Below, one piece after another: positions 6,346-63,777 of a stretch of 64,000 bases of DNA. The notes under the pieces were generated by a model. It ran no database searches, was not told where the DNA came from, and saw nothing but the letters and a program-made list of their open reading frames with translations. The stretch is taken from contig OY979719.1 in NCBI GenBank assembly GCA_963855995.1, forward strand, positions 17,145,312 through 17,209,311, given 5' to 3'. A program made the position numbers and the translations under genes. Position 1 is the stretch's first letter. The number at the start of each line of letters is the position of its first letter. The stretch is from Muricea muricata. Lineage: Eukaryota > Cnidaria > Anthozoa > Malacalcyonacea > Plexauridae.

Positions 6346-7232
6346 TGTATTTTCTACAGTTTACAACAGTTTACAAGACGAAGACTAAGAGTAGCAGCAT
6401 AGAAATTTTTTACTGCTTCTAAAATGCCACTTTCTCAGCCAATTTTAAATAAAGCCTAATGAGACATTTTCCTCTGCTGCAGCCTCTCAGGCCAGTACCT
6501 CTAAGGTTATTGAACCGGCTAAATCTTTGCCCGCAGTGATTATGGACATAAACCTTGTAGACATAAAAGTTTAATAGTTGTGAATTTAATGTTTTTTTGT
6601 ATAGAGAGAAGGTCAAAGACATGAATACAGCTCAAATTAGTAATTTAATTAAGAATGTTTTCAAGCCAGACAAACAATTTCCCTTTACTAAAACTAATGG
6701 TAGAAGTTTTAGATGAAAAAGGGTAAAGATGGGCAAAGGGTTAGAACAGACTGGGATTGATCTGAAAACTGAGCACTTTCATGCCCATGAAATTTCCAAT
6801 ATAGTCACCCAATTCTAACCAAACTTCTTTTCCCATGTGGAAAAGGTGTGAGGGCAAGTCCTGGCACCTTAAAACCAGTTACTTAGGTCTTTCATTGCAT
6901 AAGACTGTCCATGTCGGAAACAACAATATATTTAATATCATAATATATGTTATCAAGTTATCAACATGTTTCTGAGGCATGCTGATGAGCCCTGAGATTG
7001 AGCGAAACAGCTACGCTTTGTAAATCAAAAAACTTTGTAATACAGCAGATGAGTAGCAATGGCGTAAAGTTAAAAACAATATAACAATATTGAGCCACGC
7101 CACCGGAGGAAGACACGCCCCCGGATGTTTTTAGTTTTGACCAACGTACGAAAAATCCTAGATCCACGCCTGGTATTGCTACTATGACTGGGCAAAATTT
7201 CCAGTAATGATAAAGCAGTTCCTTTTGCCGTC

Positions 7233-25200: not shown

Positions 25201-28200
25201 GTTGTTTAGCATGTTGAGACGAAGAAAGAAAGAATTGGTCAGAAATGCATCGCATGTGGATACTCGGGAATAATAGCACTTGCTCATCGTCTCATCACGT
25301 TTATCCTCAAGAATCCCCCAGGTCAAGAAGAAAATGTTACACCTTCAAAGAAGTAAGTACCGTTTGAAAAGTGGTAGTAAACTTTACAATGGCATTAGAA
25401 TTACATATTCAATCTGTGGGAAGCATAACAGGTGGAAGTGGTGGAGACAATTCTTATTGTGTCGTGTTGTTTAGGGACAAGAAAAATCGTCGCGAGAAGA
25501 AGGGACAAAACAATGCACAAACTGGTTCACAAAACGGCTGCACAAGTCCAAGTCATGATTCTAATGAAGCCGACCCCATGCCGGTGATAGACACATCAAA
25601 TACTCAGTCTGTAAGATGATGCTTTTTTTTGTGATATATGCACCGTTATTAGAAACACACGTTGCAGCAGGTCATCAAGTCGAGATGAGGATGCATCAGC
25701 ATGATGATAACACGTCTGTTGCATATTGTGCACAGGTTTGATGCAAGTTGATTTGCAAGACTTCTTATCTACAAGCTTGATGCAAGTTGTTTTCAACAAC
25801 AGATTTCAGCTTGATGATTGCAAGACAACAACCTGATCTACTGTTTACTGCTATAGACCTGTGAACTTATTTTAAACATTGTTCGCTTCTACCCCGTAAG
25901 GGTACCGACTGCAGAAAAAACAATCTGTTCAGAAAAAAACAATATAACAATATTGTCACAGTCATGATATAACAATATTGTCACAGTCATGATATAACAA
26001 TATTGTTACAGTCATGATATAACAATATTGTCACGGTCATGATATAACAATATTGTCACAGTCATGATATAACAATATTGTCACAGTCATGATATAACAT
26101 TATTGTCACAGTCATGATATAACATTATTGTTACAGTCATGTCTGTCATGATATAACAATATTGTTACAATCATGATATAACAATATTGTTACAACCTTG
26201 TGTTGTCAACTTTGTGGAAATCTTGTTACAGCAGGTCTGTATCAGAAAAAAACAATATAACAATATTGTCACAGTCATGATATAACAATATTGTCACAGT
26301 CATGATATAACAATATTGTTACAGTCATGATATAACAATATTGTCACGGTCATGATATAACAATATTGTCACAGTCATGATATAACAATATTGTCACAGT
26401 CATGATATAACATTATTGTCACAGTCATGATATAACATTATTGTTACAGTCATGTCTGTCATGATATAACAATATTGTTACAATCATGATATAACAATAT
26501 TGTTACAACCTTGTGTTGTCAACTTTGTGGAAATCTTGTTACAGCAGGTCTGTATCAGACTTGTTAGGACAACCTTGTAACAAGTCTCGTATTTCCGTCA
26601 AGCTCGTTGCAAGTTGCTGACAAGTTGCTCCAGACTTGTTGACAACTTCAAGACAAGCAATGCGAACAGATCTTGTTGACGGCGTGTTGATGTACTCGCT
26701 GCAAGTTGTGAGACGCGTGTGCTTTACTTATTTTGATAGGATGGTTTTGATGATGACTGGAGCGAGGACACGAGCGAGGCTGCAGTCAGAGCACGTGAAA
26801 TGGAAGGTTTATCCATGCGTACTAAAGGATTGACCATGACCGATGATCTCGAGTTGTCTGAACAGAAGAGACTTCAAATATTTTACAGTTTCGTCGAGGT
26901 TAGTGTTTTTGATACTAATATTGATGCTAATAATTTGATATACCTTGTTTTTGGGTAGGTACTTACAGCACTGGATTTTCTAAAACACGTTGTCTGGTAT
27001 TGGTTGTTTAGGATAAAAAGAAACTGAATGATCTTGGTGTAAAAGTTATCGTTGCCGAAGCGGAACGACTTGAAGTCATGGACAAGGCTGTGCTTGTTCT
27101 TGCTGAGTTGATCTTTAATGCAGACATGGGCAATCAAATATCAAAATATGCTGCTCTTTTCAAAAGGGTAATACACCTCTATCTTTGCTATGTCTTCAAC
27201 CCAATCAACATTACCTGTCACTCTAACTCTTTTTCAACCCATAACTGTCCTGACAGTACTTTCCTCACTATTTCTGCAATGTCTTCCACCTATTGTGTTC
27301 CCTTCATTCTTTAATGTGGCTAGCATGTGACAAGCTCTCCTCATTCCACGACAATACATATTCTTGTAGCTGTACCATCTTGCCTTTGCTTTCCTTGTCT
27401 TTCTTTTCCACCTAAACACTCCACTTTGTCTCATGTCCATTTTATCCCAAGCTTGCTTGCTTATCCTTAACCTTCACCTTTCCTGGGTGGCGATGTCTTC
27501 CACCTACATACCATCCATTCCTCATGTCTCATTTCCGTGCTGTCTCGATTTCGCTTTTCCTCAATCTTCACTCACCACATCTTCAGTGCACTTTGTTTCG
27601 TGTCCATACTATCATATCTGGACCTTGCTTTCCCTAACCTTCACATTTTCTGCAATACTTCCACCCGCATAACCATTCCATTATGTCCATACTGTATCGA
27701 GTTTGCTTTTCTCAATGCTCACCTCACTGTAATAGCTTCCACGCATATCCTGCATTCCACTATGTCTCATTTTCATCCTGGCCTTGCTTTCCTTCATCTT
27801 CTCTACCCCTGCCCGCTTTTACTTACTGTCGCGTTACCGCCTTCAGCTAGTAAAAAAGTGGGAATTCCTTCATTCTTTGCAGTTTTTAACCAACAACCAA
27901 AAAGCGCAGAAACATTTGCTGGGCGCGTTCGAGATGTTGGTTGGTAAATCGTTTCCAGAAAAACTGATGCCTAAAGTTCCAAGACTTCTACAACTACTTT
28001 ATGAAAAAGATTTTCTTGAAGAAGAAGTTCTGCTGGAGTGGGCTGCCAAGGTAGGATTAACTTCAACTTTGGCTATCAAAACTTCTCCACTGTCTTGCGG
28101 CAATTTTTTTTAGCGTAACAAGTGCAAATGACAAGTTTGTTTCAACAAGCGGGTAAAATGACTACAATTTGCAAAAAGTCTTTGTGTTACTCGTTTGTTG

Positions 28201-28480
28201 CCTACTGTTTATGCGTCAAGCGCTTGAGCCTTTCTTTCGTTTTCAGGTTTCTAAGAAGTATGTTAGCAAGGAAGTCAGCAGCCAGATTCATGAAAAGGCG
28301 GCGCCATTCATCAAATGGCTCCAAGAAGCTGAAGAGGAGTCGAGCGATGACGAGAGCGAAGAAGATGCAGCGGTCGAGGTGGTCTACGCTACAGCCGGGG
28401 AGAAAGCAAAAATGGAAGCAGAAGAAAAAGAGAAGAAGGATGCTGATGAAGATGATGATTTTGATATTGATGAAATATAA
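22263..28480 (+). CDS. EIF5: Eukaryotic translation initiation factor 5
   Basis: GTPase-activating protein for eIF2 in the 43S pre-initiation complex. Nine coding exons with consistent phases: 22263-22337, 23268-23349, 23760-23932, 25210-25352, 25475-25610, 26740-26898, 27012-27167, 27883-28050, 28247-28480; 441 residues in total against 431 in human. The N-terminal GAP domain contains DQFYRYKMP with the arginine finger, followed by [15 protein letters not shown]. The zinc ribbon is split between exon 3 (CPEC) and exon 4 (CIACGYSG). A lysine-rich linker (KKNRREKKG) follows, then an acidic DGFDDDW segment and the C-terminal W2/HEAT domain with the aromatic-acidic box [20 protein letters not shown] near the end. 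An AATAAA at 28624 is a plausible polyadenylation signal. The gene looks intact. The first ATG was chosen for its match to the family's short N-terminus. Confidence 0.97.
24232..24410. mobile_element. Short foldback MITE in EIF5 intron 3
   Basis: Near-perfect palindrome of about 180 bp. AATAGATTTC at the left pairs with GAAATCTATT at the right, and the arms share TGTAATAGATCACAGATGAC and GTGTGAAGAACAAAAAGT with their complements. The loop is CGCACTCGACTGCGTCTCG-like. Confidence 0.9.
25655..25840. repeat. Dispersed CAACTTGC-type repeat, copy 3
   Basis: Contains TTGATGCAAGTTG and TGATGCAAGTTGTTTTCAAC, from the family described at 10140-10345. It abuts the 25-bp satellite array in EIF5 intron 5. 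Confidence 0.6.
25930..26555. repeat. 25-bp satellite array inside an exact 313-bp duplication
   Basis: The basic unit is GTCATGATATAACAATATTG plus TCACA (25 bp), about nine copies per block with sporadic C/T and A/T variants. The whole block including its unique tail (TTGTGTTGTCAACTTTGTGG onwards) repeats at a spacing of exactly 313 bp: the same CAGAAAAAAAC start occurs at 25930 and 26243, and the following CAG at 26556. The same variants occur in the same order in both blocks, so the larger duplication is recent. Confidence 0.95.
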
Positions 28481-46817: not shown

Positions 46818-49800
46818 CTAGAATGTAATCTTCACGTACTTAAAGGTGATAAGATAACCATCTTTTGGCCTCAGACCATCGACACCATATTGTGCTCTTT
46901 TACCATTGACACGAATTAACCAATATTGGCCCAGGAGGGGTTTTCTCTTAATGCCACATATACTTGTCACGGACCTACCCCAGGCCAATTTCTGATAAGT
47001 GGCCTTGTAGCAAGGATTTTGTAATTTCGCCAATTCCAGAAGATTATACACTGTTTTTCCAAGAGTCATCTGGACAGTTACCGTAGGCTCAGTTCTGGTC
47101 AGGTTCGTTACGTTAAACACAAGCTGAACATGAACTGTGATTATCTGGAATACAAAAAATAAGAGCTATCATTATGATAAAATCTCTGGTATGCTCCTCG
47201 TAAATGTCCCTGACACATATGTCCACGCTGCTTCTTAGGTTGAGAAAATTTACACCGTCCCCCCACTCTTCATTTACATAAGCAATTGTTTTTTTTCCAC
47301 AAACATGACTCTTCCTTAGAATTGTGACAAGTCTCTCTTTTTAAACAGAATTATATATATTTTCTTCATATCCTGTCATTTTTAAAGGTAATTTCGGATA
47401 AAAGTACCGTTGTTTTTACACTTTTCTCCCTCCAATAATCTCAATCCCATCCCGCAAAAAGAAATGTGTGCATGGAATAAATATGTCCAGATATACAGCC
47501 ACGCGTGAACAATTTAATTTTATTTAATTGTATGCTTAGCTTTCCTTCTGAAGATTACTAGAATTTACAGTCGAAACGTTAGAGTCAATTTCAGATTGCT
47601 TTTCCGCGAGTGGTTGCGAACTTCATCGCAAAGCTCATAATTCACAAGCAGTTTGCAAACAAAACCTATGATTGGCTACTAAATAAAACCAGCCAATCAT
47701 ATGCTCAGTTCACAAACCTGCTTGTGAATTCATTATGAACTTTGCAACAAATTTGTAGAGTTTGCAACTAAGTTCACAACCCCTCGCAGAAAAACGGTAC
47801 AGGTGCGAACGAGATTTAATTATAAGTAATACCATGATATGAGGGAAATTGGTGATTAAATGTCCCCGAAAGCCGAGGGAGGTTTGTGGAATTCCTGAGG
47901 GCGCAGCCCGCGGGAATTCCACAAACCTCCCGAGAGTGAGGGACATTTAATCACTAATTTCCCGACATATCATGGTATTAGTTTGTAATACCATGATTAA
48001 CGAAAATATACTGTATAATTTCTAATTTTCCCCGTTTTGGGGGAAAATTGGAGAAAATTCGCTCTTCTGAGTAATTTAGCGATTAAATATCACTCTGAGA
48101 ACAATAGAAACCGAGTTGATCATGGTATTATTTAAAAAAAACTACCCAGGCGAGGCACCTGTCCGAATATTTGATATTATTATAACACTTACAAAACAAC
48201 AATACAACATTAAATACAAAACACAATAAATAACAAAAGAATAATTTAAACCCATAAGGAATTCAACTTCGATGACAAAGGAACAAATTAACATCAAACA
48301 CAGAACGTGTTAAATTTGTATAATGAGTAAGAAGAAAGTTTTTGAATATTCTTAAAGAGGAAAAAGTATCTGGTGTAGCTGATCTGCAAATACAGTTCCA
48401 CAGTTTAACAATTCGATTGAAGTAAAATGCCTGATAGGTGTTAAAATACTCAATGACAACCGAAACTTATATGCTTACCGGTGGTGGTTCCGTTGTTGGT
48501 GGCTGTTCTAAAAAAAGAAGAAGAAAGATGTTATGATCGAGTTCTTTGTACTTTTGCTTCGTCATTGTGTGACTTTCCGTGCGGTTAATTCCTAGAGTTA
48601 TGGTTTGGTGCACGTGTAAAAACACACAAGTTGTAACAAGTCTGTACACAAGGTGTTTGCAAGTTGTGTTCGTACTGCTTGTTCAAAGTTGTTGGAACAA
48701 AGTTGTTGATGGGCTATCAAACTTGTTACAAAGTTGTTTGCAGCACGACTAATACAAACATGTTATAACAATATTGTCACTGACAACATTGTCAACTTTG
48801 TTTCAAACAGGTCTGTCTCAGAGTTTTTAGAACAGCTTTGCAACAAGTCGTATAGCTTCTTGCAAGCTGTCAACAAATTTTTGCAATGTTGTTGACAACA
48901 TGGACCAACCAGTTCAAACGTTACTTGTTGGCGATTTGTTTTCATAATTGCTACAATGGTAAGATGTTTGTGTGTACTTCAACAGTATGGGCGTCGTATT
49001 GCTCTCCTTACCTACGGGGCAAGGGTAATTCTTCAAACTGATTAAAGACTCTCCTAGAAGTGCTGGAGTGACTCGAATGTTGGCCAGAATTGTTCCAAAG
49101 GAGCCTTCTTCATCTTGATATGTGAGAATATTCCTCATTGCTTTCTCACAGAGATACTCATCCGTGTGCACACGAGCTGCTTGAAGGGCCTGGAATACAA
49201 TGCACACAAAAATGGGTTGTTTTAAACACCGGAACATATGCAATGGTTGGATCTGGAGTTATTGTACAAGATGTCATTTTTTTGGTGCTCTGTGGGATTC
49301 CGCTTAGTTCGTATGGGATATGCTTGCAGGAAAAATAACTCTGATCATGATTCAACAGCAGATTCAAATGAATTAAACTTTAAGAAATGAAAATGCGAAT
49401 TGGAAAATGTTGGAGCACAGTATTGGGGCTGAGGAACACAGAATTAGCATGCTTGGCAAACAAAACATGAGTTGGGCCTACCATTATAACATGCGCCGTG
49501 GAATATTGGTTACCAAAGGCTCCAGTTGTTTTATTTTGCTTTCTCATCAACTGTCCTGCAATTTTCACAGAGGCTTGATCTACTTCCTCTAGGCGAGAAC
49601 TGTTGGTAATGCACGATAGAGCTTGTAAGATCAACGAGTTGATGTCACCTGAATGAACGCTAACTTTTCTGTTAACTTTGTTTAGAAGTTCTTGTACGAC
49701 ATTGTCAGGCACGCGTTGACCAGCATTGCACAGAGCAATTACAGCTAAGCTGTACCCAAAATAATTATTAAAATTTGGGATCTTCTTAAACAATTTGAAG

Positions 49801-50769
49801 CCTGACAAAAGAGGCGGAATCAGGTCATACCCTTGAAAGTTCCTTGGATCTTCACACAGTGAAATCACAGCTTGGATTATAAGGGCCATATGAGGATTCG
49901 CAATGCCCGATAGGTTTCCATCTGTGGCGTTCTTTGAATCAAGGAAATCCTTCAACGTTTTTGTAATGTTCATGCCCCGTCTGTCTTTGAAATCTGACAG
50001 TAGATTCTTCGGTTTATGTCCAACTAATCTCATGATTGTAATGAGCGAGGCAGCTCGGTATTGGTACAGTTTGGTATTGTTGTCTTGGTATATGTGTTTC
50101 ATCCAGTCAGAAGAACGAAGGACAGCTCGTGTTAAGTCGGCATGCAAAGTTTCGCTCGACAAGGCTGAAAATAGATAAATTTTAAGTTTAGTATATCATT
50201 TTAAAGTTCTCCCGTTGGGTAATTCAGAGACCGCAAACTTCTACTTTCTGCATATTTTTCGCACAAAATGTTGGTGCCTAATAGTAATACTACCATGATC
50301 CTGACCAAATTTTTGAAGAAATAATTGCAAGCTTATATGAACAGGCTGTTGGAATTTTTTTTTTAATTTTACCCTCAATAGCCGAGGGTTAAGCTTCCGG
50401 CTTTTGATAACCGCCCCCTGTTGAAACATGAGAAAACTATATTGTCTGTGTAGACAATTCATCCGACGTTAAACGACTAAAGCAGGGCCGGCAACAGTAT
50501 TTTGCTCTGGTTAACTTAACTGTAGTAGATCACTCCACAAAGAGAAGAAATGATAACTAGATAGGCGAAAGAGCATAAGCAATGCCACTGCATGTCAACT
50601 ATCAGTAATGTAGGGTACAATGTAGCTCTATAGCATGAAGAAAACAGTGTAACAATGCCCTTGTGACTGTAGTTTAGAATATGAAATTCTTACCACAAAA
50701 GGTATCAACTCTGCCAAAGAAAGAACCAAGGTATATAATCACGCCGAAGAAGAAAAATCGTGTCTTCAT
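46818..50769 (-). CDS. Intrinsic factor/transcobalamin-like secreted cobalamin-binding protein (cluster gene 1)
   Basis: Complete five-exon gene of 430 residues (human TCN2 427, intrinsic factor 417). 50694-50769 encodes the signal peptide (MKTRFFFFGVIIYLGSFF). 49482-50164 and 49012-49189 encode the alpha-alpha barrel with NPHMALIIQAVISLC, NNYFGYSLAVIALCNAG, VHSGDINSLILQALSC, TTGAFGNQYSTAHVIM, ALQAARVHTDEYLCEKAM and VTPALLGESLISL. 48479-48507 is a 29-nt micro-exon for a Thr/Pro hinge (QPPTTEPPP). 46818-47144 is the beta domain (DUF4430): NPCYKATYQKLAWGRSVTSI, then QYWLIRVNGKRAQYGVDG. All phases agree. The family binds vitamin B12 between the two domains for transport or uptake. Orthology to a particular vertebrate carrier cannot be assigned, so no symbol is given. 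Confidence 0.92.
47600..47795. mobile_element. Foldback MITE in cluster gene 1 intron
   Basis: CCGCGAGTGGTTGCGAACTT pairs imperfectly with AAGTTCACAACCCCTCGC. The inner arms are AATTCACAAGCAG / CTGCTTGTGAATT and ATGATTGGCT / AGCCAATCAT. The design resembles 8044-8462. Confidence 0.8.
47827..47980. mobile_element. GC-cored foldback MITE
   Basis: TAATACCATGATATG pairs with CATATCATGGTATTA. The arms TTGGTGATTAAATGTCCC and GGAGGTTTGTGGAATTCC have exact or near-exact complements. The loop is GAGGGCGCAGCCCGCG-like. Confidence 0.92.
48263..48436 (-). pseudogene. LINE reverse-transcriptase 3' end fragment
   Basis: 57 open codons ending in TGA read YFNRIVKLWNCI, then TPDTFSSLRIFKNFLL, the usual C-terminal 'LWN...S...FK..L' end of a Jockey/CR1-type RT ORF. 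No RT core is present, so this is a strongly 5'-truncated LINE copy in an intron of cluster gene 1. It is followed leftwards by an AT-rich tail to about 48170. Confidence 0.65.
48615..48905. repeat. Dispersed CAACTTGC-type repeat, long copy
   Basis: Repeated AAGTTGT / ACAAGTTGTAACAAG words, AGTTGTTTGCAGCACGA and GCAATGTTGTTGACAACAT, from the family at 10140-10345. Intronic in cluster gene 1. Confidence 0.6.
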
Positions 50770-51494
50770 GATGTTGTTTACTACTGTATTAAATATCTGC
50801 GTTCCTTCGCTCTGGAATATGATTGTCAATGCTTGGGTTGCGCAGTTATCCTTGTATTGCTCGATTTTCTTTGTCTGGACACGTCCCGGTTGAAATGGGA
50901 ATTAACTCAAGTGTTCGTGTGGGGGTGATGCTAGAGCGAACTCCCGGTATTGAATATACTTCTTCGAGGCTCTTTCAAGGTCAATAAGTTATTTTTAAAC
51001 AGTGTTGATAGATTTAGTTTTGCTTGCTTGGCCCAAAATTGAGTTTGTAATGGGAATTATCCGGTACAGGACAACACTGCTAAATATGCTTTGTCACCTT
51101 TGTGAAACTTCTAAGAAACACCGTTTTAGTTTGTTCTAGACATCTCTAGAGAAAAATGTTTCCTGGTTTGCTCAACTTTAGGATTAGAAGTGTAACTTGA
51201 AAGCAATCGAAGATTTATAAGTTCAATTTTGTGGAAACACATTTATTAATGCGAAGTTTTAAATCTGTAAGGTCGGATCTTCGTCAGTGGTAACAACGCG
51301 ACTTGTTTAAATATACACACGTCCCTTATATAGATGAAGTGTCATGATTTGTGTGCTCGCGAGGCTATTGAAAGGTCTGTAATATACTACTTGATTTATT
51401 GGTATATACTTCTTACGTACAGTACATTGAGACTTTATTTCATTGGGACTTAATTACTTGACCGTTAGTTTTGTACAGTCTATCCTGCTTGTGA
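50770..51494. other. Upstream region of cluster gene 1
   Basis: No gene. 50990-51230 resembles 52778-53040 (shared GATAGATT, AAATATGCTTT, TGTTTCCTGGTTTG, CAACTTTAG, GTGTAACTTGAAA), a duplicated noncoding block. 51225-51300 is a half copy of the GTGGAAACAC...GGATCTTCGTCAG foldback family. Confidence 0.55.
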
Positions 51495-51738
51495 CGCAAT
51501 GCCCGATAGGTTTCCATCCTTGGTGTTCTTTGAATCAAGGAAATCCTTCAACGTTTCTGTCATGTTCATGCCCCGCCTGTCTTTGAAATCTGACAGTAGG
51601 GTCTTCCGTTTGTGTCCAGCTAATCTCAAGATGGTGATAAGCGAGGTAACACGGTATGGGTACAGCTCTGTGTGGTTGCGTTGGTATATATGTCTTATCC
51701 AGTCAGAAGAACGAAGGACAACTCTTGTTAAGATAACC
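51495..51738 (-). pseudogene. Truncated alpha-barrel exon fragment of a cobalamin-carrier gene
   Basis: About 80 codons nearly identical to the start of the barrel exon of cluster gene 1: VVLRSSDWIRHIYQ, PYRVTSLITILRLAGHKRKT, MTETLKDFLDSKN and DGNLSGIA. Homology stops abruptly at GGCATTGCG, where gene 1 continues with NPHMALII; here SQAG and then a stop follow. No signal exon, second barrel exon or beta domain is attached. It is a recent partial duplicate. Confidence 0.9.
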
Positions 51739-52469
51739 AATTTATGAATGGCGATAGAAGTAAATTGTGTAGCGATATTTTGTTTTGTGTGCATTAATAA
51801 ATTTGTTTATGTCACATTTTACTTGCCAAAATGAAATTATTTTTACTATCAGCATGTGAAGATCTGCGCGTGAGTACTTCCTGTTTCAAGGGTTAGTTGC
51901 ATTTCATGATCAATAATCCAAGAGAATATCAGTCAACATTGCGAGGTAAGACCTACAATAAGTCAGGCACCTGGGCATCAGACCTCGCCTTGACATTACC
52001 ACAATTTTCTGTCAGAATGATCACAGATATTTGAGAATGCACCGATGCAGCAAGATTATTTTGTCAAAGGCTACATGAATTTTTGCTAATTGTGCAGTGA
52101 CGAATGGAAGTGCAGCTAACACCACTTGATATACGCTGGATTATTTAAAGATATTTTATCTACGACACCAGGAAGTTACATTGTCTTACCTTTGACCATC
52201 GTACTATGTGCTGTGATTATATGTCAGTTGAAAACTTTAGCTTCCAGTTTGTCTATTGTTAGTACTCACAAATTTGTCAACCAAAAAATTACATAATCTT
52301 ATTATGCTCAATTTCCAGTTCTTTACTACTTTCATTTTAGGATTGCTTGACAAAGCAAATAAGCTTTGATCCTAGGTAGTCCAAAACTCGGTGATGCTCA
52401 AAATATGCAACTGAATGGATGTTTGATTTTTTAAAAAACACCGAGTTTTGGGCTCTTAGGCTTTGACTG
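51739..52469. other. Intergenic, no gene seen
   Basis: No coding similarity. A short inverted pair (CCAAAACTCGGTG at 52381 and CACCGAGTTTTGG at 52439) makes a hairpin directly downstream of the next pseudogene's stop. Confidence 0.4.
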
Positions 52470-55345
52470 TTAAAAATTCAACTTTTTGTATATAAACGTG
52501 ATGATGTCTCCATCTCCTGGCTGCAATCCATCGACGCCACGCTGGGCCGATTTCCCGTTGATGTAGATCATCCAGTACTGCTTTTTCTTCCATTCCCTAG
52601 CTACACAACAGATACTTGTAATAGAATGGCCGAATGAATGCTTCTCGTATGTCGCTCTGTAACAAGGGTTTTGTAGTTTGGCTTTTTCCAAAATTTCGTA
52701 AACCGTTCGCGCCTTCTAGTATGTTAAAATAATGTTGTCAGTTACGGGAACTTTTTCATCTTACTAATTTTAAGGTTCTCTTTTTAACTGTGCTGATAGA
52801 TTCGGTATTCTTGCCCGGGTGGATTGTCCATTACGAGAGAATATTCCCAAATATGCTTTCAATTGTCACTACTGGCAATGAAACTTCGAAAAAGCAAGGT
52901 TTTGGTCTGCCCGCCTTTTGGAAATACGACAAAAGATATTAATGTTTCCTGGTTTGTTCAACTTTAGAACGTGTAACTTGAAAACTTTCAAAGATTTGCC
53001 GCTTTCCTCAAATTCGTTCAATTGCAACGTTTGAATTTTGTGAATGGTTAAATCGAAAATATGGTATACAATAATGCAAACTGACCTGTGGAGAAGGAGT
53101 GGTTGACGGCTCTAAAAAATAAAAATATCAAAGAACTAAACGATGAAAACTATAAAAGGTGATATGTTGTATCATTTAAAGAGTGTGCTGCACTACTCGG
53201 TCAAGGCTATTTCAGATACCTTGAAGCAGATCGGTCCCAGTACTTTCGTTAATTTCACACGGCCAACACAGTGGACTTAGACGTAAGCGTACTGTTTTGC
53301 TATGTTAAACTTTACCAGCAAAAGATATTATATTTAAGACTATTCTCACTCAATGGGACTGTGTATCTACTTCACCAAATTTAGCTAAAGAGGGAGCGCG
53401 TAGCGCGACAATCATTACTCGCCCTTCAGGCTCGCGCTTTAGCTAAATTTGGTGAAGTAGATAAAGTCCCAGTGAGTGAGAAGTCTTAAATATAATACCT
53501 TTTGCTAGTAAAGTTTAATATAGCAAAACAGATCGCTTACGTCTAAGTCCACTGTGTTGGCCGTGTGAAATTAACGAAAGTACTGGGACCGATCTGCTTC
53601 AAGGTATCTGAAATAGCCTTGACCGCACTACTCATGTAAATTTTTACCGAGTACTCTTGATTCCTGAAATAGAACATATTGTTAACGATCTGGATGTGAC
53701 TTTCCATCTGAGTAATCGTTCAACCGTTTGCTGTGCCACACAGTCGGAAGCGCGAACTCCATGCAAACCTGCATCAAACCGATATCAGGATGCGTTCGCA
53801 TCGCTTGCTCTGGATTGATGATAACAAGTCTTGCAAGTTTTCAACAAGCTTGTTGCAAGTTGATTGATATAAGTGGTAACAAGACCATAAGCTTGACACA
53901 AGAAGATGTTTTAACAACTATATCTCAACTATATCTATGGCTATGCAGTAAACACTACGTGAGCACGTGGAAGCCTTGTTTCTTACCTACTGGACAAGCG
54001 TATCTTTTCAAATTGATCAATGATATTCCCAAGAGCGATGGCGTTATTTGAGTATTTGCCAGAATTGAACCGAACTATCCTTTTTTATCTTGATACGACA
54101 AAATATGTCTCATTGCTTTCTCACAGAGATAGACATCTGTCGAAATGCGAGCTGCTTGAAAGGCCTTGAATATAAATTTCGGAAATTGATTTTGCAGTCC
54201 CGCAGATACTACTGTTGTGAGCGAAAAGAAAACAATCTGTTGGCCGGAAAGTCAATGTTTCTTGGTATTGTTAGTTTGCATAATTACCTCGACAACTACA
54301 GCTGTTGAAATGTGATTTCCAAACGCCCCATTGGTCGTATTTTGTTTTGAGATTAAGCTTTGAACGAGTTTAGCCGAGGCCTGGTGCACTTGACGTTGTT
54401 GAAAGCTATTTGAACTTAAAACACAAGATAGAGCGGTCAAAATCAAAGCGTCTATATCAACTATATAGTAACTAACTTTTCTGTTCGCTCCCTTAAGTAA
54501 TTCTCTAATGACAAAATCTGGTATTTCTTCGCCTGAATTGCAAAGAGCGATCACGGCTAAACTATACCCAAAATAATTATTGAATCTCGGATATGTTCTG
54601 TACTTAGGGAAACCGGAAACAAGAGCCTGGATTAGATCGTGTCCGTGAAAATTTCTCGGATCTTTGCAAATTGTTATCACTCCTTGAATAATGAGACCAA
54701 GATGAGGTGTGGGAATAGTTGATAGGTCTCCGTTTGGCATAGAGTCTAGTTTTTTTTTCGGAGTTTCCTCGATGGAGTTGTCTTTAGCATCTTTGAAATC
54801 AGTGGGTAATGTTGTGGAGTGGTGTCCGGCAATTCTGAGAGTGGCAAAAATTGAACCTGCGCGATATGCTTCCATAGGTGGATTTGTGTTGTTGTTCTTA
54901 TAGGTTTGTGTCAACCAGTCAGAGGAACGAATGTAGCTCATCGGTAGGTTCGCATGTAGCTCATCGCTGGATGAAGCTTAAAAATAATACATCAAAGAAG
55001 ATCTGATTAATGTTCACTCTGATCAGTGAAAGCAAGGGATCTTATCTCGTCATCCCGCTTGTCTGTACGTGCAATTTATTCATACAGAGAAATGTCATTT
55101 AAAGAAATTGAATACAACATTATTGTACCAAATTTCAAGTATCCTTGACTAGGACAAATTTTGCCACATAATAAAAGAAACGATATTGTGGTATACTGTA
55201 AAATGTGATATTGAGCAATGCTGCCATTTGTAGTGACTCAAGCGACTCATCTATGTGACTGTAGTTTATTATAAAGAAGTACTTACCACAAAATGAATTA
55301 AACTCTTCCACAAAACAAAATCAAGTAAATAAGGCATATTTTCAT
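52470..55345 (-). pseudogene. Cobalamin-carrier pseudogene (cluster gene 2)
   Basis: Same exon plan as gene 1 but broken. The signal exon (55287-55345) has an in-frame TAA at 55298-55300 and a length one base off the required phase. The barrel exon (54288-54976) is fully open: 229 codons with RSSDWLTQTYK, TPHLGLIIQGVITIC and NNYFGYSLAVIALCNSG. The second barrel exon (53987-54164) has a TAG at 54075-54077, where relatives have a serine codon in EEGSFGTI. The micro-exon is 53086-53111. The beta-domain exon is recognisable from 52470 to about 52757 (RTVYEILEKAKLQNPCYRAT, KQYWMIYINGKSAQRGVDG), but its 5' part is degraded and contains a TAG. Several independent lesions argue for a real pseudogene rather than one sequencing error. 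Confidence 0.9.
53198..53625. mobile_element. Foldback MITE, about 430 bp, with target duplication
   Basis: CGGTCAAGGCTATTTCAGAT pairs with the right end ATAGCCTTGACCG. Arms of about 190 bp are nearly perfect (TTGAAGCAGATCGGTCCCAG, AACACAGTGGACTTAGACGT). The loop is GC-rich around 53395-53435. CACTACT occurs on both sides (53191-53197 and 53626-53632). It sits in an intron of the pseudogene. Confidence 0.93.
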
Positions 55346-55572
55346 AATGTTGTTCTCTGCCACGTCGCAGAACAATCTATGATCGTCCACGCCGATGAGA
55401 CCCCTTTTAACATGACGGGGAGACATGTGCCTCCCTCCCCCAGTCACTTTTAGTCTTTCTCCCTCCTCTCCAGCTGTTAATCCTAAATCTCTTCACTTCA
55501 AAATATTTTCGTGGAAGGAGAAAAGCATAAATTTTTAACAATGCTTGCGGGGAACCACTGAGTACTTTACAC

Positions 55573-55769
55573 AAAATACAAAACAACGGTAGCTCCGAAA
55601 ATAAACATCTTGAATTTATTCTTTCGACCTTTTGAATTTATTCTTTCGATTTGAGCTTTCGACATGTTTCGACTATATTTTGGTCATCGTCATCATGACT
55701 AAAATATAGTCGAAAGCTAGAATAAATTCAAAATGTTTATTTTCGGAGTTACCTTTGTTTTGTATTTTG
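55573..55769. mobile_element. Foldback MITE
   Basis: ACAAAATACAAAACAACGGT pairs imperfectly with the right end ACCTTTGTTTTGTATTTTG. The arms include CCGAAAATAAACAT / ATGTTTATTTTCGG and CGACTATATTTTGGTCAT / ATGACTAAAATATAGTCG. Confidence 0.85.
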
Positions 55770-56527
55770 ACAATACTTGTTTTTGGAATGGAGCCATGCC
55801 TCATCCTTATTCATGCATTCTGTTGGTGCTTTTGTCACATATTTTAAATCATACATGCATGACAATCCAGTCTTGCCCTGTTTATGATGTCATACACAGA
55901 TTATCATATAGCTTCGCTTATTACACACATGACAAAATTAGTGCAATTTAATTTGTCGAGTGGAGTGCAATTTTTCATTGCTTGCACTCCTTGTGAATAT
56001 CAGTATTTTTTTCCTAATACAATAACTAAGTAATCCGACGGCTTACGCAGTTTTGGCATAGTTTTTGAAATGAATTACGCTCCATCCCGTATGTGATTGC
56101 GTATCCAACTCCTGGCACTTATAGATCTGTCCTTGCAGACTTACGACTAATAGTTTGATAATTAGGCCCCCTGGTTTCTCTCTGTTAGTTTCTCGCACAA
56201 GATGAGCCCTCATCCCAATACAATTCCTTATATAGAAGATGCCGTGATCCGGGGTAGTTAATCTTTATCCGGGTAGGTCCTAGCATGATTGTTACTTAAC
56301 TCCGATGTTCTTGTGGCGTTGAAAAGTAGCTACCTGGTATTGTTTACTTCTTCTAGTGAAGGTCACCAAAAATATGACGAACTTAATATATAGTCTTAAA
56401 TGGCAAATTGGCTGTGTCGCACATAAAGTGGCCTCTCGAAGGTCTTTAAACTCACGTTTTCATCCGTGCATTGTCGTTCCTCGCTAAGGGTTTCCTTACG
56501 TCTCCTCCAAAGGCATTATTCTATTTA

Positions 56528-56825
56528 ACCATTAGATTACGAGCTCAAGATTTCTATGCGGTGATAGTTGATGAGGGCGAAGCCCGAATCAACTATCACC
56601 GCATAGAAATCGAGAGCGAGTAATCTAATTGTTTTAGTAGAATCAGAGGTCAAACATGGAATATTCAACAAAAAATTTGATTTTTAAGCAATTTTTTTAA
56701 AAGAAATCTCTATAGGAAGATGATTGTTTCGCTACTCGCTATCTATCGAGGAATAGATAGCGAGTAGAGTAACCAATCAAATTACAGCATTTGCAATAGT
56801 ATACTAGTATGATTCTACTAAAAAT
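56528..56825. mobile_element. Double-hairpin repeat family, copy 3 (best preserved)
   Basis: Hairpin 1: ATTTCTATGCGGTGATAGTT with its complement around GATGAGGGCGAAGCCCGAAT, enclosed by ATTAGATTAC / GTAATCTAAT. Hairpin 2: CTACTCGCTATCTATCGA with AGATAGCGAGTAG. The outermost inner pair TTTTAGTAGAATCA / TGATTCTACTAAAA spans hairpin 2. There is no open frame. Confidence 0.9.
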
Positions 56826-57507
56826 TGTTATCATATGTATAAATTTATGCTTAATTTATTTTCGAGTCGGTTTTCTTTGATGTACCGTGCATTATATCCA
56901 GGTTATTAACCTTGAAAAAATAATTAGATGAAACTTGTGTGAAAATCTCGAATACCACAGATATACATTATATATACACCACAGATATACATTATATATT
57001 TATGTATGTGCACATTGTATATTTATGTATAATCACATAACAATATAAGAAGACAAACTTGAATCACTTGATTGAAACATTTATTCACTACAAACCCTTT
57101 ATAGCACAAGTAAAAATTGTTGGTTTTAAATCGTTTGCCCAGGATGTTGGCTTGCAAAGCAGAATTAATTATAGGAGGGAAAAAAGATTTTCAGATGCTT
57201 TTACAAAATGGTTTTTTTTATTACAAGTTGGCAGTAAACACCAAATAGGTTGTCATTTAATATGATTTTAATTACAACCCAATTAACATGAAAACATCGT
57301 TACATTTACTTTTTGACTACTCTAAATATTCAACTATCACAAATGAAATACATAAAGTAATATAGTCATAATGCAAGTTTAGCTGTAAATTGCGCTAAAC
57401 TTTTCATTAATTAATACTACTATAAGTTAACCCATGCAGAAATTACATAACCTTAAATAATTATGTTCTATTTGGTCCCATGCTTTAATGCAAACAAGCT
57501 TTGACTG

Positions 57508-58308
57508 TTAATAACTGACCTTTTCGTATACGAATGTAATGATGTCCTTATCTTTTGGCTTCAGTCCGTTGATATAATATTGGGCAAGTTTCCCGTTGAT
57601 GTAAATCATCCAATAATGCTGTTTCGGCCTGTCCTCCTTCACATCACAGATACTTGTAATGTAAAAACCGCCGATGTATGTGGCTTTGTAGCAAGGGTTT
57701 ATATATTTGGCTTTTTCCAGAATTTCATAACCTGTGGTACCTTGTGGGATGTTTCCGACTGTTACTGGTAGGGGGTCTGGTTTGTCCACAGTTGCCACTT
57801 TGAAAACAACCTTTAGCTGGACTGTTATTATCTGAAAAAAACAACTCTTATGAAGATATCGACGAAATATTGAGTGTTCTATGTGAAATAAAAATCCGAT
57901 GTCTCCTGTAAATCATGCTTAAAAACTTTGAGACAGGACTGCATAATATGGCGGACCGCGGAACCATTGGTCCCAGAAAAATTTTGACGTTGGCAGAAAA
58001 ATAGCAGGATAAAATTGTAAAATGTAAAAAAAGTACCAAAGGTAAAAATCAAGAGAAAATATTTTCATACATACATGCAGTCCTGCCTTGAGAAATTGAT
58101 ATGTTGTCTCAGTATAAAATACATGTTTACCTGAGGTGGAGCAATGGCTGTTGCATCTAAAAATAGAAACATTAAGGAATCAGCTTACCACAGAATTGCC
58201 TTACTATAGTTTAGCGCAGTTACAACAAGATTATAGCTCACCACAACACACATGCATCTTGGACGATAGCAAAGTAAAAAGCACCAGGAATATCAATTGA
58301 GCATTCAT
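57508..58308 (-). CDS. Secreted single-domain DUF4430 (cobalamin-carrier beta-domain-only) protein
   Basis: Three exons: 58242-58308 (signal peptide MNAQLIFLVLFTLLSS, donor GTGAGC), 58131-58156 (26-nt Thr/Pro-type micro-exon, DATAIAPPQ across the junction) and 57508-57831 (beta domain: PLPVTVGNIPQGTTGYEI, NPCYKATYIGGFYITSIC, HYWMIYINGKLAQYYINGLK, stop). Phases join exactly, giving 138 residues. No alpha-barrel exon is found between the signal and micro-exons, which lie only 85 bp apart, so the gene encodes the C-terminal domain alone. In full-length family members this domain closes over B12 bound to the barrel. Whether the lone domain binds cobalamin is unknown. It sits between the pseudogene and the third gene in the same orientation, which supports origin by internal exon loss after duplication. 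Confidence 0.85.
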
Positions 58309-58547
58309 GATGATATCGTTTTCACGGCGAGATTAAAAATATAGGATAGCGTTCTTCTTTAAATCTCTCGCGTTTGCTTGCAGGTTACGAATAACGACTG
58401 TAATTTGATTGGACCACTTGTATTGATTCTTGTAAAATGTTTGTGCTGAAAGAAAGTCACACAGCTTTGTTGTTTGCACAAATGGGCACTTGAAAAGCTG
58501 CGCTATTGTTCGAATGGAGATCTGTCTTATTTCAATCACCAAGATAA

Positions 58548-59340
58548 TCAGATTCGCTCCTGCAGTGCTAAAAACAAGTACAAGTCAGAACTTGATTGGA
58601 GTTTTTTGAAACTAGGCGTGTATAGTGATTGATAGTGTCTCGAAATGACATTACCCCATTGTCTGTAAACGTTTCTCTGATTCAGGCTCAATTAAAATGA
58701 ACTTTTGCCACGATGTTGGGATGATCTACGTTTTTAAGTTGTTGTCATAGTAACCGAGATTTACTGCGCATAAGGAAGAAAAATGGTAATATTTCCAAAA
58801 ATTATTGCTCCACAATGAAGCGTGATACTAATGCGAAAATGTCTATGCTGAGAGCTAGGATCTTCCTATTTCAGTTCAGGACAGCGGCAGGAAGGGTCGA
58901 CATTGATAAACAAACTACTTTTTCTAATTAATCAGATTCGCTCCTGCAGTGCTAAGAACAAGTACAAGTCAGGACTTGATTGGAATTTTTGTAAACTAGG
59001 CGTGTAGAGTGATTGATAATGTCTCGAAATGACATTACCAGTGTCTGTAGTGCAGTTAAAAGCTGCCTATACTGTCTGTTATTTTCATGGACCTAGTTAA
59101 AATCATATTAAGATAGTGTATACCACAAAAGAAAACCTCAATTTTTCTGATTCAAGCTCAATTAAAATAAACTTTTGCCGCGATGTTGGGGATGATTTAC
59201 GTTTCTAAGTTGTTGTCATAGTAACAGAGATTTACCGCACAAAGGAGAAAAATGGTTATATTTCCAAAAAATATTGCTTAAGAATGAAGCGTGATACAAG
59301 TGCGAAAATGTTTATGCTGTGACTAGGATCTTCCTATTCC
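58548..59340. repeat. Diverged tandem duplication upstream of the beta-domain-only gene
   Basis: Unit 1 begins at 58548 and unit 2 at about 58927. Both contain CGCTCCTGCAGTGCTAA, AACTAGGCGTGTA, TCTCGAAATGACATTACC, CTCAATTAAAAT, TTAAGTTGTTGTCATAGTAA-type, GAATGAAGCGTGATAC-type and AGGATCTTCCTATT. There is an insertion of about 70-100 bp in unit 2. Its position just 5' of the short gene raises the possibility of regulatory DNA, but nothing shows this directly. Confidence 0.78.
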
Positions 59341-60099
59341 AGTTCATACCCGGACTAAAATCAATGTATTAGTATTAGATCACAGTAACTGGACAACTAA
59401 ATAACTGTGCAAATACTGGAACTGAACCTAATCAGTCTTAAAGACAATTTATATACGATATAAATTGCAGTTAATGGGGCAATGCTTGGAACTTTGACAG
59501 GTGATAGTAACACGTACACAATCGCATTATTTTCTGTCCGTTGTTCAAAGGTCACTTTGATTACATGGTCTAAAAGATCAAAGTTCATATTTCGAGCTAT
59601 CATGCGTGCACATGCACAGGTTCGGCCTGGTTCCCAACAGCCAATGAAATTGCGAGATTTCCAGAGATACGATACAATAGATATTGCATGCTCGAAAAGG
59701 TCGCTTTGTCTCAAAGTTCCAACAAGAAGGCTATTACAAACGACGCAAAATTCTTTACCCACCCACCCACATCGCCTGTCGATGGCCCCTTGATCTCAAA
59801 CGAAATCATTGGAACACTTGGGATTAACATTGCAAACATTGGTGAACATTGCAACCAGGCGAATTTTATGCACACCAAGTATAGTAAAGTACATAGCGTA
59901 TTATTTATGTTACATGTATTTGTTCAATTTTTAACAATAAATAGAATGGTCCTGGGGTTGAAGTGCTCCCAAATGGTCACCTTCAGGCCCATAGACTCGG
60001 ATTATTTTGTAAATAAACATAGTCGAATCGTAGGGGCTACCCAAAGAGATTATCACCCTTTGGTTCAGGTTAATATCGGAGGGGATTATCACTCTTCTG

Positions 60100-60325
60100 C
60101 CATGGCTTTACTCCGGGATTATGACCCCTAGGGCCGCCCTACTCGGGGATTATGACCCGTAGGGCATTCACCCTGGCATGGCTCTACTCGGGGATTATGA
60201 CCCCTAGAGCCGCCCTACTCGGGGATTATCACCCCCAGGGCATTCAGCCTGGCATGGCTCTACTCGGGGATTATCACCCCTAGGGCCGCCCTACTCGGGG
60301 ATTATCACCCCCAGGGCATTTTTCT
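60100..60325. repeat. GC-rich minisatellite (CTACTCGGGGATTATgACCCC)
   Basis: Alternating short units built from CTACTCGGGGATTATGACCC and AGGGCCGCC or AGGGCATTCACCCTGGCATG. The higher-order period is about 85-90 bp. The GC content stands out sharply from the AT-rich surroundings. Confidence 0.88.
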
Positions 60326-60520
60326 AGCGGGTCTTATATATACCCCGCTAGATGAAAACATAAGGCCGTACGAGTCTCTTGGGTTAGACCACAATTAGAA
60401 CAGTTTATGTAACTGTATAACTGGAGTACTTCATCCCCACGACCCCTTATTCCACAATTATTCTGTGTGTCCGCGTTTGATTATTTATTTTCAGTCTAAA
60501 AAGCAATTGAAACATTGATT

Positions 60521-60630
60521 GAAATATAATTTTGGGGAAACACCACGTAAATTTATTATCGCAAAGCTTCATGGATCGGAAGCTTTGCGGTGGTAAATTT
60601 ACGTAGTGTTCCCACAAAATTATACTTTAA
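60521..60630. mobile_element. Short foldback, relative of the 36.9 kb MITE
   Basis: ATAATTTTGGGGAAACACCA at the left pairs with the right end GTGTTCCCACAAAATTATA. The centre, AAGCTTCATGGATCGGAAGCTT, is a deleted version of the longer family member at 36933-37135. Confidence 0.85.
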
Positions 60631-61421
60631 ATTGATATTCACCATGCAAACATACAAGGATCTTATTAATTAGTCTTCTAGTTTGTCGCATAGACCAGGC
60701 TCTGTACCATACGTTTTGAAAAGTTGGAAATCATGTAGTGAAAATCGTTATTGAGATAGTCACTTGGAACATGCTTTTGCGGTGACATTTTTATTCACCT
60801 GCGAAAAACGGCTTTAGCTATGTGTTTTTGCGTAAATAATCTACCTAAAACAATGATATTGAAAAATGAAAGCAAAAGATCAGTGGCGGTCCAGGGTAAG
60901 TCATAAATTATAGCAGCTCAACTTTAAATTCAAAATAACTTTATAACAGTGTAATAGGTTATGAATTTCAAAAGAATAAAATCTAACGAATGAAGTTGCT
61001 TTGAAGGTATTTTAAAATGTAAATATATCCTAGAATGAGCTGTGGTGATTTATTTTGACTTACGCTAGATCCGCCACTGCAAAAGATTATGAACTAATCG
61101 CTTATTGTCAAGATGTTTCACAACTTTTTGTAATGCAGCAAAACTTCCACAAATGGTCATTTAATATAATTTAAATTACAATTACTTACCCAATTAACAT
61201 ATAACACCTTTAACGTCATTATGCTTACTTTTTAGTACTTTAAGTGTAACTGTCAGCGATGAAACATATAGTAAATCTAGTTAATACATGTAGCTTTATA
61301 TGCAGCTATAAAACCATGAAATAACGCTTTTATTAATTAATACCCAGAAATTTCATGTAAATGATCTTATATAATTATGTTGTATTTTGCTCACTGCATC
61401 AATGCAAACTAGTTTTTGATG

Positions 61422-63777
61422 TTAAAAATTCAACTTTTTGTAAATAAATGTAATTTTGTCGCCATTTTTTGGTTTTAATCCATCGACGCCATATTGGGCA
61501 CTTTTTCCGTTGATGTAAATCATCCAATATTGCTTTTTGTCCCAGTCCTTTTCCACACCACAAATACTTGTAACGGAACGACCGAAGGAATACTTCTTGT
61601 ACGTTGCTTTGTAGCAAGAGTCTTTAGATTTGGCTTCTTCAAGAATTTCGTAAGCTGTGGTACCTTGTGGGATGTTTCCGACTGTTACTGGTTTAGGGTC
61701 TGTTTTGTTCACGTTTGTCACGTTGAAAAGAAGCTCCACAACAACTGCTATTATCTGAAAAAAAAGTCTTATTCAGATATCGACGAAATTTTGAGTTTCT
61801 CTGTCGAATAAAAATACCATATCATATCTCCTCAACTGAAGACATCGATGAAGTTCAACCGACACCAACAACAAGGAAAAAAGACACAAAGAAGATTTGT
61901 TTCTATTATCAAGATGATGATGAAGATGATAATGCTGATAATGTTGACCAACTAATATATTTAAGAACACACTTTTCGTTTTAGCAAAGGCTGGTTTCCA
62001 AAGAGGTGCGTTATATTTGTTAGATAGAGAATATTATATGGTTGCAAGAAAATATGAAACTTATTTCAAATGTTGAACAAGATATTTACAGAAAATACAT
62101 GTTTACCTCAGGTGGAGGAGTAGTTGGTGGTTCTACAAAATAAAAACATCAAGAAATTAAAAACGTTTTTACGAATTGAAATTCACTTTGCGGAAGCCTT
62201 GCTATTTTTTCTTACCTGCTGGACAAGGATATTTTTTCAAACTGATCAAAGATTCTCCAAGGAGTGCAGGAGTGACTTGAATATTTGCCAGAATTGTACC
62301 AAACGATCCTTCTTCATCTTGATACGATAGAATATGTCTCATTGCTTTCTCGCAGAGATATTCATCAGTGTGAATACGAGCGGCTTGGAGAGCCTGGAAT
62401 ATAGAGGAAAGGCGTGGAGACAAGCTTCTGGCTACGAGCTTTGGAAAGCATGTTTAGGAAACAAGCATAGAGTAACACCTAAATTAGCATAACACTAGCA
62501 CTTTACTGTTGTTTACCCCGCTAACTTTTCACAAGGAGACTGACAATTATACATTGCGTACTGCTCCCTGATGCTTTAACGGCCCTGCACAGTTTAAGAT
62601 CAGGTGGGATGGGATCACTGAAGTCTTACAGAATAGCAACAACATGGTATCGGAAAGATTACTGAAACTACATGGGGGATGGAAAGCAGACTTGCGAAGG
62701 ACATGTGTACGTGCAAGAGAGTATTTCCTACAGACGGAAAGTTACTCGTTGTTTGAACCATTAAACGGTATTGGTAAAGCAATATAAAGTTATATAGTGT
62801 AATTGTAAACGCGTGTAATTTGATAGCACGATAAGGCTTAATTAAGTTCCTTAGTTGTGAAGTGTAATGGGACAATAATCTGCTTGGAATTCCTGCGAAT
62901 CCACCCGTAACTTGTGTCAGTCTGGTTTATTACAGGAATTTAAGATGAAAATATTTTATGTTCGTTTGAACGCAGTGAATTAGAACATACAACCAATTAA
63001 GATATCTGAAAATCATGGGGATATGGTATGTAGATATAGTAAGGCTTATTTTCTGATATTTTCGGATTTGAATATTTACCTCGATAGCCAGTGCAGTTGA
63101 ATACTGATTTCCGAAAGCTCCAGTTTTGGTATTTTGCTTTGAGAGCAAGCCTTGAACAAGATATGACATTGCCTTGTCTTTCTCACTTTGCAGAGTGCTA
63201 TTTGGGCTTGCGACACAAGACAAGGCGGTCAAAATTAGCGCGTTGGTGTCAACTGAGTGATAGCTACCTTTCCTGTTCGCTCCCTTGATCAATTCTTTAA
63301 TGACATAATCCGGTGTTGGTTCGCCTGCATTGCACAGAGCAATCACTGCTAAACTATAGCCAAAATAATTGTTGAAACTTGAATACGTTTTGAAGTAGGG
63401 AAAACCGTCAAGAAGAGGTTGGGTTAGATCGTGTCCGTGAAAATCTCTTGGATTTTTGCAAATTGATATCACTCCTTGAATAATGAGGCCAAGGTGAGGT
63501 GTAGGAATAGTTGAAAGATTTCCGTTTGGCATAGAATCAAGTTTATTTTTCAGAGTTTCCTCAATGGAACTGTCTTTAGCATCTTTGAAATCGCTCAGTA
63601 ATGTCTTAGAGTTGTGTCCGGCGATCCTGAGGGTGGCAAAAATCGAGCCCGCGCGGTATGGTTTTAGCTCCGATGTGTTGTCCTTGTACGTTTTCCTCAA
63701 CCAGTCAGTGGAACGAACGGTTGCCCGAATGAGGTCCGCGGTTAGAGTATGTTTTGACCTCGGGTTTGACGGCGACA
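61422..63777 (-). CDS. Intrinsic factor/transcobalamin-like protein (cluster gene 3, signal exon beyond window)
   Basis: Four of five expected exons. 63080-63777 is the barrel (RATVRSTDWLRKTYK, TPHLGLIIQGVISIC, NNYFGYSLAVIALCNAG, YHSVDTNALILTALSC, TGAFGNQYSTALAIE). 62216-62393 continues it (ALQAARIHTDEYLCEKAM, TPALLGESLISLKKY). 62107-62132 is the 26-nt micro-exon (EPPTTPPPE across the junction). 61422-61754 is the beta domain (KPVTVGNIPQGTTAYEI, SCYKATYKKYSFGRSVTSIC, QYWMIYINGKSAQYGVDGLK, TAA). The 410 in-window residues are free of stops. The barrel exon starts in phase 1, matching the signal-exon end of the complete gene, and no signal exon is found between 63778 and 64000, so the true start lies past the right edge. 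Confidence 0.91.

Follow-up and report, generated by a model that had tools for sequence, protein, structure and literature searches.

What gene family occupies 17 kb of one contig of the anthozoan Muricea muricata, and how have its copies come and gone there? We analysed 64,000 nucleotides (nt) of assembly GCA_963855995.1, contig OY979719.1 (C4:17,145,312-17,209,311, hereafter the window), and searched the genome (453 Mb, 74 contigs). Five units of the transcobalamin (TC), intrinsic factor (IF) and haptocorrin (HC) family lie within positions 46,818-63,777 of the window. All are on the minus strand and, in order of transcription, they are E, D, C, B and A. We read the cluster, with a probability of about 0.8, as a tandem array of secreted two-domain corrinoid carriers. 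In this reading A and E are intact, D is an E-like duplicate that has lost exons 2 and 3, and C and B are dead copies.

Family identity, put forward by an original prediction made from the sequence alone, was confirmed by profile searches. Briefly, ten exon translations were scanned with Pfam, using cut-offs of 25 bits for PF01122 and 23.8 bits for PF14478. The first barrel exons of A, C and E exceeded the PF01122 cut-off (61.6, 67 and 70.4 bits, respectively). Likewise, the beta exons of A, C, D and E exceeded that for PF14478 (36.8, 44, 50.2 and 62.1 bits, respectively). The second barrel exons of A and E, scanned singly, stayed below the PF01122 cut-off (16.5 and 19 bits) and unit B alone had no Pfam match. 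When spliced, A matched both profiles (PF01122, 87.5 bits; PF14478, 33.7 bits), as did E (100.1 and 58.6 bits). Spliced D matched PF14478 only (50.2 bits). Spliced A and E also touch PF13243, far under its cut-off.

Gene A has five coding exons (76, 683, 178, 29 and 327 nt) with GT-AG splice sites and a product of 430 amino acids. Gene E has the same five-exon plan with conserved phases, and the plan is repeated in three complete copies elsewhere on C4. A, D and E have consistent splice sites and phases. Five tandem units on one strand and a common exon plan are supported, as predicted. E itself had been described as open at the 5' end. This was incorrect: exons 2-5 are inside the window, exon 1 is just past its end, and the gene is complete.

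A and E would each encode a signal-like peptide, an alpha6/alpha6 barrel, a short proline-rich hinge and a beta domain. Their starts are hydrophobic (best 8-mer hydropathy 3.0 in A, above 2.4 in E exon 1) and exon 1 ends in Cys in both. The products would be expressed and secreted; following the known mechanism of the family, barrel and beta domain would close on cobalamin and carry it to an extracellular destination of delivery. Cysteines 103, 145, 184, 241 and 284 of A (numbered from exon 2) align with cysteines of HC and IF chains. Of these five alpha-domain cysteines, the first is outside the aligned range in TC chains and the other four align. Their disulphide pairing would be that reported for rat TC (PMC11107200).

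Gene D has three exons (67, 26 and 324 nt) and a beta-only product of 138 amino acids. Its architecture, a signal-like exon and PF14478 without a barrel, is like that of TCNL. No PF01122 was detected in the spliced protein and no barrel match between the exons of D. Exons 2 and 3 of the five-exon plan start and end in phase 1; they are a phase 1-1 cassette. Hence, loss of the cassette joins exon 1 to the micro-exon in phase 1 and the reading frame is kept. To judge from the sequence, the simplest account of D looks like an intron-1 to intron-3 deletion in a duplicate of E. An E-like gene would have been duplicated, and the deletion, whose exact ends are presumed, would have taken exons 2 and 3. 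This would have left D encoding an in-frame signal-hinge-beta protein.

D and E have flanks in common. Their upstream regions align with a score of 221, compared with a shuffle mean of 43.8, and 0 of 500 shuffles reach it. The likeness of exon 1 was matched by 0 of 500 shuffles and that of the end of intron 3 by 1 of 500. The beta exon and 3' flank are 73% identical over 687 columns. A search of the window and of 16 fetched loci with the region upstream of E gave no match other than that region and its counterpart upstream of D. Separately, positions 58,545-59,346 upstream of D hold a tandem duplication of ~330 bases, split into two pieces of 89 and 92% identity. Hence, D may have a doubled promoter region.

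The rate of evolution also shifted in D. We fitted a self-written codon model nine times, combining each of three topologies with each of three column sets (77-110 codon columns). The ratio of nonsynonymous to synonymous rates (omega) was 2.4-6.9 on the D branch compared with 0.14-0.18 elsewhere (twice the log-likelihood difference, 2dlnL, 18.4-22.0). Freed in turn, the other branches had omega of 0.23-0.43 (E), 0.16-0.19 (C) and 0.06 (A); freeing E or C raised the log-likelihood by at most 1.3. A 38-nt run identical in the D and E beta exons may be a conversion tract, and the D rate result is the same without it. D may be evolving under relaxed or changed selection. Most likely, it is expressed as a half-clamp, binding cobalamin weakly alone or not at all. 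By analogy, weak binding by a free beta domain is plausible because IF cleaved into two fragments is reported still to bind cyanocobalamin tightly (PMC6257451), and PDB 5np4, by its title, is a structure of the human TC beta domain in isolation with cyanocobalamin.

C and B are dead copies. C is a pseudogene: exon 1 is frame-shifted, exon 3 is interrupted by a TAG, and the 5' part of the beta exon is degraded and contains another TAG. With duplicates, dead C and B and barrel-less D, the predicted birth, death and domain reduction are all found in one locus. To date these events, synonymous divergence (dS) was calculated by NG86. In exon 2, dS is saturated for A-C and A-E and 0.78 for C-E. For D-E it is 0.39 in the beta exon, and for A-B it is 0.29 in the barrel exon. 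These values point to an old array with continuing turnover, not a wholly recent one. The "recent" diversification of the original prediction consequently survives for D-E, A-B and the distant C4 copies described below, fails for A compared with C and E, and is intermediate for C-E.

Over A, C and E, omega of the barrel is 0.21 in exon 2 and 0.10 in exon 3, with the C exon 3 stop treated as X. Exon 3 of A and E is 90% identical, compared with 56-57% in exons 2 and 5. Gene conversion was considered for this exon and rejected. Here synonymous divergence is ~1 and the maximum likelihood (ML) pair omega is 0.044; hence, strong constraint explains the likeness. For the other two exons compared, exon 2 and the beta exon, the pairwise ML estimate of omega between A and E hit parameter bounds and is meaningless.

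Searching the genome with the E beta exon identified 17 beta exons (19 candidates scored). The E barrel exon gave 11 matches at 10 places (13 candidates scored). The family thus extends beyond this one locus. The PF14478 profile, at E<=0.001, reached 11 of the 17 beta exons: four in the window, six on contig C1 and one on C14. The six dispersed C4 beta exons were not reached at this threshold and were recognised by similarity to the E beta exon. No barrel was detected alongside 8 of the 17, namely D, the 13.73-Mb copy on C4 and six on C1. Nearer the array, tblastn with 11 exon queries (E<=1) found no further unit in positions 1-46,000 (best only E 0.28), and roughly 15 kb beyond E also held none. 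Searches for relatives in viral and prokaryote collections gave pattern matches, none confirmed.

The six C4 copies, 2.3-3.5 Mb from the window, are the most recent of the family. Three are complete genes, two are broken and one has no barrel in its 10 kb. The last five lie at steps of ~238-283 kb. In the complete copies exons 1-3 have the lengths of those in A; one copy ends one codon later. Between L029 and L031, 5 bases differ in the coding exons that were compared. In the beta tree all six are sister to A (100/100). The single C14 carrier is possibly of ancestral type.

Contig C1 has six beta exons at four loci. A barrel hidden Markov model found none in these loci (10 kb each, plus 4 kb) or in the 13.73-Mb copy, the C14 control scoring 4.7e-37, and genome-wide barrel searches listed none on C1. 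Three of the C1 beta exons continue in frame to a hydrophobic C-terminus, weakly so in L035. A Thr-rich stretch precedes the tail in two of them, with six 23-residue repeats in the L036 exon at 4,687 and one unit in the L037 exon at 4,349. From their sequences these three beta-domain proteins look membrane-tethered. Coordinates are listed in Table 1.

Table 1. Units of the carrier array and related copies in the M. muricata genome. Positions are those of the window unless a contig is named; positions within C1 loci are counted from the start of the interval.
Feature	Position	Strand	Description
A exon 1	50694..50769	minus	signal-like peptide MKTRFFFFGVIIYLGSFFGRVDTFC, donor GTAAGA, phase 1
A exon 2	49482..50164	minus	alpha-barrel part 1 (PF01122)
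A exon 3	49012..49189	minus	alpha-barrel part 2; 90% amino acid identity to E exon 3
A exon 4	48479..48507	minus	micro-exon, Pro/Thr linker EQPPTTEPPP
A exon 5	46818..47144	minus	beta domain (PF14478) and stop
B	51495..51732	minus	isolated barrel-1 fragment, 238 bases; 87% DNA identity to A 49,899-50,136
C exon 1	55287..55345	minus	signal-like, frame-shifted
C exon 2	54288..54976	minus	barrel part 1 (PF01122), frame still open
C exon 3	53987..54164	minus	barrel part 2, in-frame TAG
C exon 4	53086..53111	minus	micro-exon
C exon 5	52470..52712	minus	beta domain (PF14478); 5' ~30 codons degraded, TAG
D exon 1	58242..58308	minus	signal-like peptide MNAQLIFLVLFTLLSSKMHVCC, donor GTGAGC, phase 1
D intron, 85 nt	58157..58241	minus	probable fusion, matching E intron 3 in its 3' part and only suggestively like intron 1 in its 5' part
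D micro-exon	58131..58156	minus	DATAIAPPQ
D beta exon	57508..57831	minus	PF14478 and stop
Region upstream of D	58372..59052	minus	also present upstream of E, as three pieces of 75-81% identity; part of it is duplicated in D
E exon 1	C4:17,209,743-17,209,812	minus	70 nt, MNTQWIFLFICFISLSCETDAFC; 432-501 bases past window end (17,209,311)
E exon 2	63080..63777	minus	barrel part 1 (PF01122)
E exon 3	62216..62393	minus	barrel part 2
E exon 4	62107..62132	minus	micro-exon EPPTTPPPE
E exon 5	61422..61754	minus	beta domain (PF14478) and stop
Six C4 copies, L028-L033	C4:13,735,000-14,855,000	minus	86-98% DNA identity, 2.3-3.5 Mb from window
Single diverged two-domain carrier, L034	C14:11,853,574-11,855,938		barrel ~31-34% identical to A or E
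L035 beta exon	C1:90,788,000-90,797,999, at 3,472-3,780		no barrel detected
L036 beta exons	C1:111,500,000-111,509,999, at 4,687-4,998 and 6,795-7,058		no barrel detected
L037 beta exons	C1:111,543,500-111,553,499, at 4,349-4,660 and 5,918-6,181		no barrel detected

Are the units separate genes, or could they be alleles, haplotigs or duplicates made in assembly? For the window copies the second view is refuted, and we give it next to no credence. Coding DNA is only 55-87% identical among them (two misaligned C exon-3 rows excluded), intron lengths differ, lesions are distinct, and all five units occupy one 17-kb stretch of a 19-Mb contig. Hence, the predicted true tandem genes are upheld. Outside the window, the copies at C4 13.84 and 14.32 Mb are 98% identical and could be doublets. 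The ligand is a separate matter. TC is reported to have a cobalt-coordinating His (PMC11107200). From rat numbering, this site was inferred to precede the Ser of SVDT by two residues, within the alpha7/alpha8 loop. At the inferred site the alignment has Val in A and Tyr in E, so that, unlike TC, neither has the His; one residue later, both have His. Hence, upper-face corrin binding by A and E should resemble that of IF or HC. The beta-domain aromatic is reported as Trp in HC and IF (PMC3331988). At what is probably its position, A has Trp and E has Phe, and D has a gap of three residues. Similarly, the HC alpha-domain motif given as TNYYQ (PMC4350170) reads NNYFG in A and E, and NNYFQ or NNYFR in copies elsewhere. 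Such variation of motif and pocket aromatic among paralogues would suit proteins that keep the carrier fold for another corrinoid or none, for example in defence or nutrient withholding; some carriers of the family are also reported to bind other corrinoids (PMC4350170). The overall architecture and the low omega of the barrel exons argue instead for a conserved ligand, and we think a ligand other than cobalamin unlikely.

Several results weigh against our reading of the array, most of them concerning D. Two structure models had a mean predicted local distance difference test score of only 64.5 and 62.4. No Foldseek match of either reached E 0.001; transcobalamin was listed first for the model of E exon 2. 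Plain Foldseek with the D model gave no usable match, and phmmer with spliced D found no family member among PDB sequences at E<=10. The likeness of the 5' half of the D intron to intron 1 is only suggestive: its score was reached by 80 of 500 shuffles for E, 22 of 500 for A and 104 of 500 for C. In the beta tree D is basal to the other nine C4 rows (84/80), not beside E; the D branch is long, and a D+E grouping is not rejected by the approximately unbiased test (p-AU 0.257). In another reading D is no local deletion product and belongs to an old beta-only lineage, common to D and the barrel-less C1 genes; there is no more than marginal evidence against one clade of D and the six C1 rows (p-AU 0.053). 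Nevertheless, D falls within the C4 group (88/81), its upstream region, exon 1 and 3' flank are common to E, and the E upstream region has no match in five fetched C1 loci. We consider such a lineage very improbable. It is quite possible, if not what we favour, that D is a dying gene, inactivated by exon loss and intact in appearance for want of time. Omega on its branch, at or above 1, is not distinguishable from 1 (2dlnL 1.4-2.4). Freeing branch A also improves the fit, less than D does (2dlnL 12.7-13.8, omega 0.06); hence, rate differences are not confined to the D branch. Three residues are missing in D from the loop expected to carry the clamp aromatic, and D differs at 8 of 40 beta-domain positions that do not vary among A, C and E. 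In neutral simulations the beta exon was still stop-free in 1362 of 4000 runs with 25 substitutions and 651 of 4000 with 45 (16-34%). Hence, the open frame alone proves little and D could be an early pseudogene. Copies do die at this locus, as C and B attest. Against decay, the signal-like exon, two introns, micro-exon and beta frame of D are all intact, the sole length change of its beta exon relative to E is in frame (9 nt), and the E-like upstream region is still present.

A split B12 clamp, kept in addition to the two-domain carriers, can also be imagined. Secreted D and the free beta domains of C1, three apparently membrane-tethered and two behind a Thr-rich stretch, might capture corrinoid by themselves, or pair in trans with the barrels of other carriers to complete the clamp. 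They might thus form the cell-surface receiving half of a corrinoid relay. We regard this idea as a long shot.

The window holds other features. A 0.2-kb element at 60,881-61,079 looks like a young dispersed repeat; L028, ~3.5 Mb away, contains a copy with 94.6% identity. A tandem repeat with a 76-base unit (90-93% identity) occupies 60,097-60,320. Elsewhere are reading frames for a reverse transcriptase (200-1,528; PF00078, 113 bits) and a secretin-family seven-transmembrane receptor (3,617-4,852, minus strand; PF00002, 68.3 bits), a lactate/malate dehydrogenase-like exon (17,358-17,726, minus strand; PF00056) and exons of an eIF5-like gene (23,675-28,480, plus strand; PF01873 and PF02020). 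A match to the green fluorescent protein family that carries three stops and the overall character of the window are suggestive of a cnidarian.

A and E are like vertebrate TCN2, GIF and TCN1 in their signal-like start, PF01122 barrel, linker, PF14478 domain and aligned cysteines. Vertebrate TC, IF and HC were the only PDB proteins matched at E<=0.01. Bacterial protein RUMGNA_00854 (PDB 3u7z) also counts among the closest known systems. Vertebrate TC, IF and HC genes have nine exons, unlike those here, which have five coding exons including one large 0.68-kb barrel exon. Also unlike the vertebrate genes, those here form a one-strand tandem array, and two of their beta-domain cysteines have no aligned Cys in TC, IF or HC chains. 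Such carriers are described from vertebrates, amphioxus and acorn worm (PMC4350170). Among the matches listed, our literature searches surfaced no work on the family in cnidarians.

Beta-only relatives of teleosts are reported as DUF4430-only proteins (PMC4350170). D resembles TCNL of Eupercaria fish in lacking a barrel (PMC7918649, PMC4350170); the likeness is of architecture, and orthology is not claimed. TCNL is reported as the most expressed gill gene of an icefish (PMC7918649), and the parts of the literature examined report no test of its binding. D is similar in size to a 142-amino-acid zebrafish sequence that is set aside in the paper describing it (PMC3331988). Unlike TCNL, D lacks clamp-loop residues and apparently descends from the gene beside it, E, through loss of an exon pair of phase 1-1; where the fish genes came from is described as unclear (PMC4350170). 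D is 18-23% identical to the human TC beta domain of PDB 5no0 (apo) and 5np4 (cyanocobalamin) which, unlike D, is a fragment of a two-domain protein and not the product of its own gene.

Two-domain and beta-only carriers, including teleost TCNL, are thus already known. A and E add new members to an established family. D is a new case of a reduction already described, and one that can largely be traced. A link between the cluster and microbial symbionts or competition for B12, raised in the original prediction, is speculation. In M. muricata, carriers have diversified by both tandem and dispersed duplication. One 17-kb locus displays the likely parent of D, the missing exon pair, the phase symmetry that enabled its loss and the rate shift. 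Hence, D and E are a matched pair for probing the role of a half-clamp. The phase 1-1 cassette mechanism predicts that intact carriers, too, may give rise to exon-skipped beta-only isoforms.

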